Source: an uncultured Bacilli bacterium (lineage in GTDB: Bacteria; Bacillota_I; Bacilli_A; RF39; UBA660). Taken from it: DNA of 64,000 bases. The notes beneath the pieces are model-generated. The model was not told the origin of the DNA. It saw only the letters and a program-made list of their open reading frames with translations, and searched no databases. The first letter of the stretch is position 1. Each line of letters opens with the position of its first letter. The translations under genes were made by a program, and so were the position numbers. The stretch lies in assembly GCA_947589735.1 (NCBI GenBank), contig CANQCR010000005.1, positions 1 to 64,000 of the forward strand, given 5' to 3'. Below, in pieces: positions 6,282 through 34,994 of this stretch.

Positions 6282-7127
6282 TCACTTTCCTTGATATTTA
6301 ATATATTCATCATATACTTCACTTTTTTTAAGATGCCGTTCTTTAGCAACTAATTTAATTGCATCTTTGCTATTATAGCCTTCATCTAAATATAAATTAA
6401 TGTGATCAATTAAAGACATCGTAAAAGTTTTAACCTCACTATTACCTTCTAAAACCACAACTAATTCCCCTTTAAAGGTGTAATTTGCTTTAATAATTTC
6501 TTCAATTGTTCCACGATAAACTTCTTCGTATTTTTTAGTTATTTCCCGGGAAATAGCTATTTTTCGATGTGGTCCAAAAACTTCCATAAAGTCCTTTAAT
6601 GTATCGTTGATACGATGGGGAGCTTCATAAAAAATAAGGGTTGCTTTTTCATCTTTTAAAGCTTCTAACTCCTTAAGACGAAGAGATGCCTTACTATTTA
6701 AGAAGCCATAAAACATAAAAGGTTTAGGATTAAGACCCGACATAATTAAAGCAGGAATTAAGGCATTAGCGCCTGGTAAGCCAACGACATTGTATCCTTC
6801 TTCTATAGCAAAACGAGCTAATTCGAATCCGGGATCACTTATAACAGGCGTTCCCCGGTCACTTACAAGACCGACATTAAGGCCATCACGTAAGTATTCT
6901 AATAATTTATCTTTATTAGTTACTTCGTTATGATCGTGATTAGATATCATTTTTTTAGAAATATCTAAATACTTTAAAAGTTTACCTGTTTCTCTTGTAT
7001 CTTCACAAAATAAAACATCAACTTCTTTTAATGTTTGAACACTCCGATAAGTCAAATCATCCATATTGCCAATCGGGGTGGGAATTAAATATAGTGTTGG
7101 TGTTTTATCATAACTTTTTTGCGACAT
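6282..7127 (-). CDS. rsmI: 16S rRNA (cytidine-1402-2'-O)-methyltransferase RsmI
   Basis: SAM-dependent methylase of the 30S decoding region (B. subtilis YabC/YraL type). The start LYLIPTPIGNMDDLTYRSV, VGLVSDRGTPVISDPG and GLPGANALIPAL are diagnostic for the tetrapyrrole-methylase fold. It is 281 residues, usual length. GAGGTGATTAA precedes the ATG. It sits between the TrmN6-like methylase and pth, and its stop is a few bases from the pth start, so co-transcription is likely. A perfect Noc-type palindrome lies inside its coding sequence (separate entry). Confidence 0.95.
   Translation of the reverse strand: MSQKSYDKTPTLYLIPTPIGNMDDLTYRSVQTLKEVDVLFCEDTRETGKLLKYLDISKKMISNHDHNEVTNKDKLLEYLRDGLNVGLVSDRGTPVISDPGFELARFAIEEGYNVVGLPGANALIPALIMSGLNPKPFMFYGFLNSKASLRLKELEALKDEKATLIFYEAPHRINDTLKDFMEVFGPHRKIAISREITKKYEEVYRGTIEEIIKANYTFKGELVVVLEGNSEVKTFTMSLIDHINLYLDEGYNSKDAIKLVAKERHLKKSEVYDEYIKYQGK
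6541..6554. promoter_or_regulatory. Perfect 14-bp Noc-binding-type palindrome inside rsmI
   Basis: ATTTCCCGGGAAAT matches the known B. subtilis Noc binding sequence at all 14 positions. A six-base C/G core is unlikely by chance in such AT-rich DNA. The window encodes a Noc homologue at 32.4 kb, which makes function plausible. It lies in the reading frame of rsmI, as many chromosomal Noc sites do. Confidence 0.7.
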
Positions 7128-13025: not shown

Positions 13026-13041
13026 CGTTTCACGTGAAACA
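13026..13041. promoter_or_regulatory. parS centromere site
   Basis: CGTTTCACGTGAAACA matches the 16-bp parS consensus TGTTTCACGTGAAACA at 15 positions; the inner 14 bases form a perfect palindrome. It lies between the SRP RNA gene and tadA, about 9 kb from the origin, where ParB (Spo0J) sites cluster in Firmicutes. No canonical parB is in the window. Confidence 0.88.
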
Positions 13042-13048
13042 AAAAAAA

Positions 13049-13123
13049 GAGGTGCACACAATTAGGAACTCTTAAGGCTGCTGTTTTCCAACTCTGACCT
13101 GGTTCAAGTATAAATGTTGCACC
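13049..13123 (-). ncRNA. ffs: Small signal recognition particle RNA (4.5S type)
   Basis: Read on the minus strand, ACCAGGTCAG, a GGAA tetraloop closed by GTT/AAC, and AGCAGCC reproduce the conserved domain IV that binds Ffh. The ends GGTGCA and TGCACC pair, giving an elongated hairpin of about 75 nt, followed by eight T. It directs nascent membrane and secreted proteins to the translocon with Ffh and FtsY. This is the short bacterial form without the Alu domain found in Bacillus scRNA. It lies between gyrA and tadA. The exact 5' and 3' ends are estimates. Confidence 0.93.
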
Positions 13124-13129
13124 AATTAA

Positions 13130-13158
13130 AGTTTATCTTATTTGTATTTAAAAAACAA
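13130..13158 (-). promoter_or_regulatory. Promoter of the SRP RNA gene
   Basis: On the minus strand TTGTTT (13153-13158), a 17-base spacer and TAAACT (13130-13135) are positioned so that transcription would begin at the GG of the SRP RNA terminal stem. The hexamers are moderate matches. Confidence 0.5.
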
Positions 13159-20780: not shown

Positions 20781-22127
20781 CTATTTTATTCGATTAATTA
20801 TTTTCTGAATCTCATTGTTTAAAGCTTCATCTTTTAAGATTTCATTTTTAATTTTATTAACAGCGTGCATAACGGTTGTATGGTTTTTACCACCAAACTC
20901 AATCCCTATTTTAGTTAAGTTTTCTTCTAGATAAACTCTACATATATACATCGCAATCATTCTTGGAATGGCAATCTCACTTGTTTTTTTCTTACTTTTT
21001 AAGTCTTCGGGACTAATTTTATAATTGTCACTTACTAATTGAATAACTTGATCAATTTTGTTTTTAGCAACAACTCTGACACTAAAGTGATCTTGCAAAG
21101 CTTCAACAGCTAAATCTAGGGTTATGTCTTCCCCACCCATACAAGCGGAATAAGCATATACTCTAACAATAGCTCCTTCAAGTGTTCTAATGTCACCTGC
21201 ACAATTACTAGCAATATACTCTTTAACGTCTTCAGGAAAATCATTACTAATCCCCTGTTGTTCTAGTTTTTTATTTAAGATATTCATCCTTAGTTCAAAT
21301 TCTGGTGGTAAAATATCAACTTGAAGGCCCCCTTTAAAGCGGGTTTTTAAACGCTCTTCTAACTTTTTAATATCTTCGGGAGAACGATCAGATGAGATAA
21401 TTATCTGTTTTCTATTATTATATAGTTCATTAAAGGTGTTAAAAAACTCTTGTTGAGCAAATACGGATGTGACAATATTTTGAATATCATCAATAATTAA
21501 AACATCGACATCGCGGTATTTATCTTTAAACTCTCTTACTGCTTCTTTGTTATCACCATTATTATTTTTTCTGCACATTTCGACGAATTCATCGACAAAC
21601 TTATCACATGGAATATATAACACGCGTTTATTACTGTTTTGAACAATATAGTTACCAATAGCGTGCATCAAATGTGTTTTACCTAGTCCACTTGATCCAT
21701 AAATAAAGAATGGATTATACATATTACCTGGTTGTTCAGCAACAGCTAACGCACTAACAGCAGCAAACTTATTACTATTACCAACAATAAAAGTATCAAA
21801 GTTATAGTCAGGATTTAAACCAGATTTAAATTTTTCATTAACCCCTATTTCATTCGTATCAATGACGATATTTGATGTTAATTCATCTTCTGTACAAAAC
21901 TCGAATTTAAAATTGGTTCCCGTTAACTCTGTGAAGTTTTCTTCAATTAAATCAATGTAGTGATCAGCAAGTTGTTTTTTATGTACAATGGTTGGAACAG
22001 ATATTTTAGCTAAATTATTATCCAAAGATATCAATTTAGCTTCTTTAAACCAAGTTTCATATGAGATATCATTCATTTGTCCTTTTATTTTTTCTAAAAA
22101 GGAGTTCCAAATACTTTCTAAGTCCAT
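20781..22127 (-). CDS. dnaA: Chromosomal replication initiator DnaA
   Basis: AAA+ initiator that melts the origin. Domain I is at the start (WNSFLEKIKGQMNDISYETWF); Walker A is GSSGLGKTHLMHA; Walker B is VLIIDDIQN; the domain IV DNA-binding signature is EFGGKNHTTVMHAV. Domain II is short, giving 448 residues. AGGTGAGGT lies just upstream of the ATG. It is transcribed away from the box cluster. Confidence 0.98.
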   Translation of the reverse strand: MDLESIWNSFLEKIKGQMNDISYETWFKEAKLISLDNNLAKISVPTIVHKKQLADHYIDLIEENFTELTGTNFKFEFCTEDELTSNIVIDTNEIGVNEKFKSGLNPDYNFDTFIVGNSNKFAAVSALAVAEQPGNMYNPFFIYGSSGLGKTHLMHAIGNYIVQNSNKRVLYIPCDKFVDEFVEMCRKNNNGDNKEAVREFKDKYRDVDVLIIDDIQNIVTSVFAQQEFFNTFNELYNNRKQIIISSDRSPEDIKKLEERLKTRFKGGLQVDILPPEFELRMNILNKKLEQQGISNDFPEDVKEYIASNCAGDIRTLEGAIVRVYAYSACMGGEDITLDLAVEALQDHFSVRVVAKNKIDQVIQLVSDNYKISPEDLKSKKKTSEIAIPRMIAMYICRVYLEENLTKIGIEFGGKNHTTVMHAVNKIKNEILKDEALNNEIQKIINRIK

Positions 22128-32294: not shown

Positions 32295-32306
32295 ATTTAA
32301 TTTATT

Positions 32307-32350
32307 ATTTCCCAAAAAATATTGTATTATTTCCCGAAATATATTATAAT
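32307..32350 (+). promoter_or_regulatory. noc promoter with overlapping Noc-type half-sites
   Basis: TTGTAT (32322-32327), a 17-base spacer and TATAAT (32345-32350) form a promoter. ATTTCCCGAAAT (32329-32340) lies inside the spacer, and ATTTCCCAAAAAAT (32307-32320) lies just upstream. Both begin with the ATTTCCC half of the Noc site, exactly 22 bases (two helical turns) apart. Autorepression by Noc is a natural inference, not shown. Confidence 0.6.
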
Positions 32351-32378: not shown

Positions 32379-34994
32379 ATGAACGATACGCGAAATAAAA
32401 TCGTTGAGTTAAATTTGAATGATATACTTCCTAATCGTTTTCAGCCTCGAATCCAATTTAATGAGGAAGCGATTATTGGATTATCAGATTCAATTCGCGA
32501 GCATGGTGTTTTAGAACCAATCATTGTACGACCAATTGGCGATAAATATGAAATAGTAGCAGGCGAAAGAAGATATAAAGCCTGTGTTTTAGCGAATTTA
32601 GAAACAATTCCTGCTAGAATTATTGATATGAGTGATCATGATAGTGTTGAAATAGCTTTGATTGAAAATGTTCAACGTCGTGATTTAACACCAATTGAAG
32701 AAGCTTTATCTTATAATCGTATCCTTGATATGGGTTATTTAACACAGGAACAATTAGCTCGTAAATTAGGTAAAAGTCAATCAACTATCGCTAATAAGAA
32801 ACGTCTTTTAAACTTGTGCGATGAGGTTCAATCTGCTTTAGTTGAGGAAAAAATTTCGGAAAGACATGCTAGATCTTTACTTAAACTTAGTAACGCTAAT
32901 GCTCAAAAAAGAATGTTAAATCGGATTATTGATGAACGTTTAACTGTAAGACGCTTAGATGAAGAAATTGAAAAAGAATTAGCATTAATGACGCCGGAAG
33001 AACAATTAGAAGAAGTGGCTAATGCTCTACTTAATGTAGAAGACGATGTTCAAGAAGATTCAATTATCGATATTTCAAACTTATTTGATGATGATATTAA
33101 GCCAATTGAATCTTTAGATAAACCAACAACTTCAATGTCATCTAGTCCAGCTATTTCTGAAATTAATACTAATGTTTCTAACAATATTGAAAGTGCTCCA
33201 ACACCTACATTAGAAACATCAATTAATCCAGCATCAGCACCAATGAATAGTGAAACGGAAAGTGTTCCAACACCAAGTCCACATATTGAGCCTCTACCAA
33301 GCTTAATGCCTACTATTCATCAGTTTGTAGAAACAATAGCTCCGGAATCAATGGATAATCCAATCATGACAAACGAGACAACAACATCTATTTCACCAAC
33401 CCCAGAAATGCCAGTAGTTGAACCAAGTCCAATGACGATGGCGCCAGAATTAACTAGTGAACCAATTACTAATGATGTGTCATCTCCATCAATTACTGAG
33501 GTGAATAGATTTAATAAATTTATTGCTCCAGAATACAAGAATGAAGATCCTGATAATAAACTAGATCCATTAATAGCGCCAGTAATAGAAAATCCTAATG
33601 GAACTAGTGAACCAAGTGTTGAACCTATTGCGCCACCAGATAATCTTACCCCAACAACGATGTTTTCAAACTTAATGAATAATAATCCGGTGCAAGAGAG
33701 TGAAAATGTTCCTATTAATCAAGATGATTTAAACAATTTCTTAGATCCATCTATTATTGATGGTCAAAAACAGGAAGTGCCTGAAAATATTGATATTATC
33801 GATGCTTCCGTATTTGCTAGGTTCTTAGATCCTGATTATGATATAAACAGTATAGATAATGAAGAAAAAGAGGAGGTTAAACCTATGTCATTTGCTCAAT
33901 ATTTAAATAATGATAACAGTAATGATCAAGTTCAAACGACGCCAATGACGCCATCACCAAGTGCTCCAGATATGCTAGCACCACAAGGAACCCCATCATC
34001 AATGCCAGATATGTTAGCGCCACAGAGTCAACCAAGTGCGCCAACAGGTTTTGATATGCCAAAACCAGACTTAATGGCAACGATGGATTCTAATTATAAT
34101 CCAACAGCAATGCCACAAGCACCAGCAGTACCGGACATGTTAGCACCAGCGGAAACGCAAGCTCCAGATATGCTAGCACCACAAGAAATCCCATCACCAA
34201 TGCCAGATATGTTAGCGCCACAGAGTCAACCAAGTGCGCCAACAGGTTTTGATATGCCAAAACCAGACTTAATGGCAACGATGGATTCTAATTATAATCC
34301 AACAGCAATGCCACAAGCACCAGCAGTACCGGACATGTTAGCACCAGCGGAAACGCAAGCTCCAGATATGCTAGCACCACAAGAAATCCCATCACCAATG
34401 CCAGATATGTTAGCGCCACAAAGCGCACAACAAAGTTTGAATCCAAGTATGGGCGTTGGAGGATCAACTTTAACTCCTGATACTTCTTTTGGTTTAGCGC
34501 CTGAAGTAGAAACACCAACAGAAACGCCACTTACTGAAAGTTATCAAGTACCACAAGAAACAAATCAACCTGGCTTTGTTATGGCTACAAGTGATCAACC
34601 AAATTATAATATGCCATCAACACCAGTGATGGATACAAATACAAATGCTTTATTCCAACCGCCAGCTCCAGAAGAACAAGCTCCTGTAGAAACTCCAGCT
34701 CCAGTTGTGGATTTACCACCAGCCGAGACGGAGATAACAGCTGAGCCAACTGACGAAGACATAAGCCGTTCACAAGCGGAAATTCAGCCAATTATTGTTA
34801 CTGATTATGAGAAACAATATGATCCTTTATTACCTGATAATCCAGCTAATATGGAGCCAAAAGTTGATTTACGCCAAGTTATTGATATGATAAGATCATT
34901 AAGTAATCAAATTGAAGATTTAGGCTTTAAAATTGATACCGAAGAGGTTGATTTTGATGATTCTTATAAAGTAACTTTTGTGATTGAAAAATAA
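32379..34994 (+). CDS. noc: Noc-like nucleoid occlusion protein (ParB family) with giant repetitive linker
   Basis: 871 residues; Bacillus Noc has about 280. Residues 1-230 are a ParB/Noc module: NRFQPR, the CTP-binding motifs GERRYKA (62-68) and ENVQRRDL (97-104), and an HTH at about 121-145 reading GKSQSTIANKKRLL. It keeps the Gln and Lys of the Noc recognition helix (Bacillus GQSTIANKLRLL). The last 43 residues (IRSLSNQIEDLGFKIDTEE) resemble the Noc C-terminal dimerisation domain. Between lie about 600 residues rich in Pro, Met, Ala, Ser and Asp, including a 66-residue duplication. The ATG at 32379 has GTGAGG upstream; the tracked start coincides with the -35 box. The N-terminal membrane-binding helix of Bacillus Noc is missing. 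It follows rsmG as noc does; no soj/spo0J follows. Confidence 0.85.
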   Translation: MNDTRNKIVELNLNDILPNRFQPRIQFNEEAIIGLSDSIREHGVLEPIIVRPIGDKYEIVAGERRYKACVLANLETIPARIIDMSDHDSVEIALIENVQRRDLTPIEEALSYNRILDMGYLTQEQLARKLGKSQSTIANKKRLLNLCDEVQSALVEEKISERHARSLLKLSNANAQKRMLNRIIDERLTVRRLDEEIEKELALMTPEEQLEEVANALLNVEDDVQEDSIIDISNLFDDDIKPIESLDKPTTSMSSSPAISEINTNVSNNIESAPTPTLETSINPASAPMNSETESVPTPSPHIEPLPSLMPTIHQFVETIAPESMDNPIMTNETTTSISPTPEMPVVEPSPMTMAPELTSEPITNDVSSPSITEVNRFNKFIAPEYKNEDPDNKLDPLIAPVIENPNGTSEPSVEPIAPPDNLTPTTMFSNLMNNNPVQESENVPINQDDLNNFLDPSIIDGQKQEVPENIDIIDASVFARFLDPDYDINSIDNEEKEEVKPMSFAQYLNNDNSNDQVQTTPMTPSPSAPDMLAPQGTPSSMPDMLAPQSQPSAPTGFDMPKPDLMATMDSNYNPTAMPQAPAVPDMLAPAETQAPDMLAPQEIPSPMPDMLAPQSQPSAPTGFDMPKPDLMATMDSNYNPTAMPQAPAVPDMLAPAETQAPDMLAPQEIPSPMPDMLAPQSAQQSLNPSMGVGGSTLTPDTSFGLAPEVETPTETPLTESYQVPQETNQPGFVMATSDQPNYNMPSTPVMDTNTNALFQPPAPEEQAPVETPAPVVDLPPAETEITAEPTDEDISRSQAEIQPIIVTDYEKQYDPLLPDNPANMEPKVDLRQVIDMIRSLSNQIEDLGFKIDTEEVDFDDSYKVTFVIEK
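33963..34420 (+). repeat. 198-bp direct repeat inside noc (two full copies and a partial third)
   Basis: GCTCCAGATATGCTAGCACC recurs at 33963, 34161 and 34359, an exact 198-base (66-codon) period. Copies 1 and 2 are nearly identical in DNA; the third stops after about 60 bases. The protein unit contains three MPDMLAP-type heptads. Near-identity at the DNA level points to recent duplication and to length instability. Confidence 0.93.

Follow-up and report, generated by a model that had tools for sequence, protein, structure and literature searches.

The 14-letter palindrome inside rsmI in the window, the whole 64,000-nucleotide stretch analysed here, is, judging by its sequence, almost certainly a genuine docking site for Noc. 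Our best reading is that the Noc encoded in the same window partners ParB-parS close to the origin and probably regulates itself, and that it is not a dispersed, membrane-bound occluder. We consider it probable that the Noc-binding site (NBS) is genuine and acts as an origin-proximal loading site, with Noc working as an origin-proximal clamp rather than occluding division over the whole nucleoid. The 14-mer that the sequence-only reading had reported, ATTTCCCGGGAAAT, is indeed found at 6541-6554, and when the flanking T and A are included, positions 6540-6555 match the idealised 16-bp NBS, TATTTCCC-GGGAAATA (PMC7383237), at 16 of 16 positions. Within rsmI the site is translated as Ile-Ser-Arg-Glu-Ile (ATT TCC CGG GAA ATA).

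6282 to 7127, minus strand: rsmI (TIGR00096, 265 bits).
6540 to 6555, no strand assigned: 16-bp NBS TATTTCCCGGGAAATA in rsmI, with its core at 6541-6554; at an identical position and with identical codons in 15 family genomes.

The sequence-only reading had also anticipated an excess of the 14-mer over the whole genome. Two perfect copies are present in this genome (1.44 Mb in 26 contigs), against 0.003-0.009 expected per genome under Markov models of order 1-3 (0.0001-0.0004 per 64 kb; GC content of the sampled DNA, 31%) and none for the reversed control; genome-wide enrichment did not follow, and only the rsmI copy looks conserved. The second copy lies on contig C16 (G000:C16) in a P-type ATPase gene, where the coding frame reads ISREI, and it may be a chance occurrence, since the nearest sister genome (G004) has the rsmI copy alone. 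At up to two mismatches, the genome yields five NBS matches and five control matches. It therefore holds no hidden crowd of degenerate sites, and we rejected a dispersed set of degenerate NBSs in this genome; dozens of sites, as in B. subtilis and S. aureus, were not found in it at this threshold.

Across the family, the exact site is widespread. The relatives are draft MAGs that carry the labels uncultured Bacilli, Tenericutes or Mollicutes; their titles suggest that many come from rumen or other gut-type samples. In a first set, a perfect copy was present in 32 of 34 genomes of the same family, compared to 1 of 23 genomes from other families of the same class. In a wider draw, perfect copies turned up in 315 of 386 family genomes (134 of 150 genera) and the reversed control in none of the 386, which agrees with the earlier proposal that the Noc recognition sequence would be conserved in this lineage. 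Perfect copies number 1-20 per genome across the family and 1-2 in the own genus of the window. In 785 kb of fetched family DNA, picked partly for holding sites, the motif occurred 68 times and 95 other W4-S6-W4 palindromes 0 times, and in 830 kb of noc-anchored DNA that was not picked for sites, the motif occurred 7 times versus 0 for the 95 control palindromes. With the family-wide control at 0 and the Markov expectation far under the observed number, we rejected a chance origin of the NBS, and these sequence comparisons support the view that the site is under selection. A perfect copy is missing from 71 of the 386 family genomes; among 12 of these that were checked, five have one-mismatch copies (three of them with several on one contig) and seven have none. 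In one genome with no perfect NBS, four one-mismatch copies (ATTTCCTGGGAAAT) at G019:C21:59182-59508, spaced ~105 bp apart and 22 kb from noc, form a variant array.

The rsmI copy occupies the same place in 15 genomes from six genera, in which RsmI identity falls to 55%, and its spelling is ATT TCC CGG GAA ATA in every one of them. An alignment of 14 non-redundant rsmI sequences contains 86 invariant residues with a synonymous choice; 12 of these use a single codon, and five of the 12 are the NBS codons, in a test that is conditioned on genomes with the site. TCC and CGG are fixed at the NBS and infrequent at other Ser and Arg columns of rsmI. Taken unconditioned, the rsmI copy is kept in 10 of 12 own-genus genomes. 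The encoded ISREI is part of a conserved protein motif, and it is also read at three of the five copies away from the origin, showing that coding helps to create such sites. We nevertheless find it very unlikely that the rsmI copy is a coding coincidence, in which ISREI is spelled this way by luck and only the other near-origin copies matter. The exact ISREI reading, and its recurrence at non-origin copies in P-type ATPase and ATP-grasp genes, speak for such a coincidence, but the five codons are identical in the 14 non-redundant genomes, TCC and CGG included, whereas other rsmI Ser and Arg codons vary, and the own-genus genome G005, whose rsmI lacks the site, instead carries a perfect NBS 179 bp upstream of noc.

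A noc homologue does lie in the same window, as had been claimed, starting at 32379, 25.8 kb from the site.

32379 to 34994, plus strand: noc-type gene, 871 aa (TIGR04285, 261 bits), with the Noc structures 7ng0, 7nfu and 7ol9 as best solved relatives.
32379 to 33044, plus strand: Noc residues 1-222, CTP-binding N domain and helix-turn-helix domain, in a high-confidence model, with GERRY and ENxQR motifs.
33045 to 34853, plus strand: Noc residues 223-825, acidic Pro/Ser/Thr-rich linker, predicted to be disordered.
34860 to 34991, plus strand: Noc residues 828-871, ParB-type C-terminal dimerisation domain (helix-strand-strand), from the structure model.

TIGR04285 is the best NCBIfam model for this protein, at a score (261 bits) that falls short of the curated cut-off of 315, as do the scores of all family members; the matched stretch stops at the linker start, and the C-terminal parts of the model are matched in relatives. 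Residues 1-222 match solved Noc structures best, and in the structure model ~600 residues of low confidence separate this N-terminal part from the folded C-terminal domain. The same build is seen in 49 relatives from named MAGs (partly overlapping genomes), and across 33 genomes the linker is acidic and 56-666 residues long. With the CTP motifs GERRY and ENxQR and the modelled C-terminal domain, Noc is predicted to be a CTP-dependent ParB-fold clamp.

Residues Q173, K179 and R201 are present in 33 of 33 family Noc proteins, while position 184 is mostly Asn and otherwise Ser, Ala, Thr, His, Asp or Lys. The Asn that the sequence-only reading had suspected at a Lys specificity position is real (QKNR in the window's Noc) and presents no difficulty, because one Lys at either 179 or 184 suffices to license NBS binding (PMC7383237) and K179 is invariant; the NBS-specific residue set (Q173, K179 and/or K184, R201) is thus in place. 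That the palindrome is bound instead by some other origin-proximal factor, unrelated to Noc, strikes us as extremely improbable. Such a factor would fit the few or no perfect copies in relatives with a canonical Noc, and class relatives of this kind have 13-24 sites at up to two mismatches versus 0-15 control matches. It would not fit the complete match to the known NBS, the Q/K/R specificity residues in all family Nocs or the half-site in the noc promoter described below.

The N-terminal membrane helix of Noc and the helix that follows it have been described previously (PMC8429893). In family Noc, just 15-19 residues precede PNRFQPR, compared to 27-31 in two canonical class relatives, leaving no room for this membrane helix; residues 1-7 are coil in the model, and we recognised no N-terminal membrane-targeting amphipathic helix. 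Two other class relatives (G056 and G040) also have short Noc N-termini, with 15-20 residues before PNRFQPR, indicating that the family is not alone in having lost the membrane helix. We relied on N-terminal length alone here, as a simple comparison of hydrophobic moments over the first 10 residues failed to distinguish the groups. The ParA-binding motif LG(R/K)GL is absent from all 33 Nocs. Fewer NBSs go together with a longer Noc (Spearman -0.46, or -0.56 with one value per genus), a link on which we did not rely, given that it weakens to r -0.35 and p 0.04 with independent contrasts.

The linker has features of its own. At 33900-34430 the window's Noc contains an internal repeat of ~80 residues (PDMLAPQ.../FDMPKPDLMATMDSNYNPTAMPQAPAVPDMLAP) that is near-identical in DNA. 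A motif resembling NPGFMDVDKIxxxAxDI...DxxxLL occurs in many of the otherwise variable family linkers (L172, L177, L183, L188, L192, L196, L202, L204 and L206) and is absent from the window's own Noc, and own-genus Nocs share PIIxTDYxKQYDPxLP before the C-terminal domain. It is possible that conserved short linker motifs of this sort bind partners.

The noc promoter contains NBS half-sites.

32306 to 32335, plus strand: tandem NBS half-sites TATTTCCC (32306-32313 and 32328-32335), candidate noc operator.
32322 to 32350, plus strand: probable noc promoter, TTGTAT-17-TATAAT, whose spacer holds the second half-site; read from sequence and conserved in the own genus.

Genomes of the own genus and of near genera carry a pair of TATTTCCC half-sites 22-23 bp apart upstream of noc, the second of them in the TTGWAT-17-TATAAT spacer; the -35 element is too weak for a consensus scan. 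Searching genomes for TATTTCCC-N13..15-TATTTCCC gave a single hit per genome in 11 genomes, in every case immediately upstream of noc, and no matches for the control. A single tandem half-site that occurs only at noc suggests autoregulation, by Noc or by another half-site-reading factor, and in the own clade we conclude that noc is probably autoregulated through these half-sites.

The positions of the sites point to the origin.

13026 to 13041, no strand assigned: parS-like site CGTTTCACGTGAAACA (1 mismatch) between tadA and gyrA, 6.5 kb from the NBS.
20781 to 22127, minus strand: dnaA (TIGR00362), taken as the oriC marker, 15.6 kb from the rsmI NBS.

The first 34 genomes hold 81 copies, 77 of them placeable, and 72 of these 77 lie inside or just beside the mfd-noc region, which has the order mfd-pth-rsmI-trmN6-ricT-holB-recR-dnaX-tadA-gyrA-gyrB-recF-dnaN-dnaA-yidC-mnmE-mnmG-rsmG-noc (some gene names by homology and position only). 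The five copies outside it are at G000:C16, G001:C8, G010:C2, G009:C2:146773 and G026:C1:104579. The family-wide search supplied 20 more regions, used in the order listed, and in these every NBS fell in the mfd-noc region. For the 44 copies that share a locus with dnaA, the distance to it is 2.4-14.5 kb (median 9.4 kb), as bounded by loci of at most 20 kb. Being few in number and close to the origin, the NBS set resembles a centromere (parS-like). Enrichment away from the terminus, as the sequence-only reading had predicted, is not what emerged: there are one to few copies per genome, nearly all within ~15 kb of dnaA, and a dispersed nucleoid-occlusion pattern like that of B. subtilis and S. 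aureus is therefore absent, with no spread of NBSs over at least the origin-proximal half of the chromosome.

In addition, the NBSs keep company with parS. The family parS cluster lies in the gyrA-tadA gap and is represented in the window by the single parS-like site, which is the sole parS match at up to one mismatch in its genome. NBS and parS alternate in arrays with units of ~79 bp (G033) and 66 bp (G015), an NBS follows parS by ~46 bp in the G025 array, and the two are neighbours in G016, G020, G023, G032 and others. Several contigs end within arrays, so that the array sizes are minimal values. G033 has two different gyrA contigs, L075 (G033:C53) and L074 (G033:C1), with differing NBS/parS arrangements, and may therefore mix two related strains. 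A bacterial small SRP RNA (RF00169, 57 bits) at 13041-13130 on the minus strand, between tadA and gyrA, abuts the parS-like site of the window. The own genome also encodes soj-parB (C5:78.8-80.6 kb), and this ParB has the ParA motif and R173. Here noc and soj-parB are ~47 kb apart; in L089 and L124 (G015 and G024) the order beside rsmG is noc-soj-parB-mscS, as in Bacillus.

One could read this arrangement as ordinary nucleoid occlusion with minimal sites, in which, given a small cell, one origin-proximal complex suffices to keep the division ring away from the origins and contacts the membrane via the linker or a partner. We think this unlikely. The NBSs of B. subtilis and S. aureus are already origin-biased (PMC5540599), Noc complexes spread over 8-10 kb, and family noc has its usual place after rsmG, followed by soj-parB in several family genomes. 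However, the 41 loci bound by Noc in S. aureus occupy an origin half of ~1.4 Mb, with just one of them more than 700 kb from the origin (PMC5540599), versus one or a few sites within ~30 kb here; moreover, family Noc has no N-terminal membrane helix, and the interleaving of NBS with parS would be left unexplained.

We favour Noc as an origin-proximal clamp. Homology and protein anatomy, set beside the observed sites, positions and conservation, suggest how binding, spreading, condensation, autoregulation and cellular role may fit together. Noc, having kept its CTP-clamp domain, NBS-reading helix and C-terminal dimer domain, would load at one or a few NBSs ~2-15 kb from dnaA and probably spread onto adjacent DNA in the manner of known ParB and Noc clamps, so that a nucleoprotein patch could form beside or inside the ParB-parS cluster. 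There it would most likely gather or condense the origin region, or couple the origin to replication start or segregation. Division occlusion over the whole nucleoid is most likely not its task, because there is no room for a membrane helix and no ParA-stimulating motif, and the disordered linker is very long. Within the own clade, attachment of Noc to the tandem half-sites in the noc promoter probably controls how much Noc is made. The chances seem to us evenly balanced that this large family has a composite centromere served by two ParB-type proteins, with ParB at parS and, at NBSs beside or alternating with parS, a Noc that has a long linker and no membrane helix, Noc having left dispersed occlusion to become a second origin-organising clamp.

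Family Noc comes closest to three known kinds of system. With the Noc-NBS occlusion systems of B. subtilis and S. aureus (PMC7383237, PMC8429893, PMC5540599) it shares the 16-bp site, residues 173, 179 and 201, the CTP motifs, the rsmG-noc gene place and the lack of a ParA motif. Unlike those systems, with dozens of sites over at least half the chromosome, the family has one or a few at the origin, its Noc offers no room for an amphipathic N-terminal helix and carries a linker of 56-666 residues, and the own clade has a tandem half-site candidate operator at noc. The family also differs from class relatives with a canonical Noc: its genomes hold a small number of perfect sites, nearly all of them at the origin. 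In the single-contig class relative G056, the sites listed at up to two mismatches range from 8.6 kb to 2.47 Mb. The likeness to ParABS (Spo0J/ParB-parS) lies in few sites clustered ~9 kb from dnaA, in arrays, in NBSs interleaved with parS and in a shared ParB fold, CTP motifs and C-terminal dimer domain, whereas family Noc is predicted to read NBS and not parS, has no ParA motif and coexists with a separate soj-parB in the same genome. KorB/VirB-type proteins are likewise ParB-fold DNA-binding proteins without a ParA motif, and KorB is a clamp that also regulates transcription; the candidate operator in noc's own promoter recalls this, with a regulatory role here read from sequence alone, while family Noc differs in being chromosomal, origin-linked and, as predicted, NBS-specific. 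We found no report in the open-access literature of origin-restricted NBSs, of a linker of this kind in Noc or of an autoregulated noc gene. The system makes it possible to separate what Noc function owes to site distribution and what to the membrane helix, and to ask what purpose a second origin clamp serves, and the alternating NBS/parS arrays lend themselves naturally to studying how a single DNA segment is shared by two sliding clamps. Noc is considered a descendant of ParB that shifted from the origin to chromosome-wide sites; in this family of at least 150 genera, Noc keeps its own DNA code, yet its sites are at the origin, often in register with parS.
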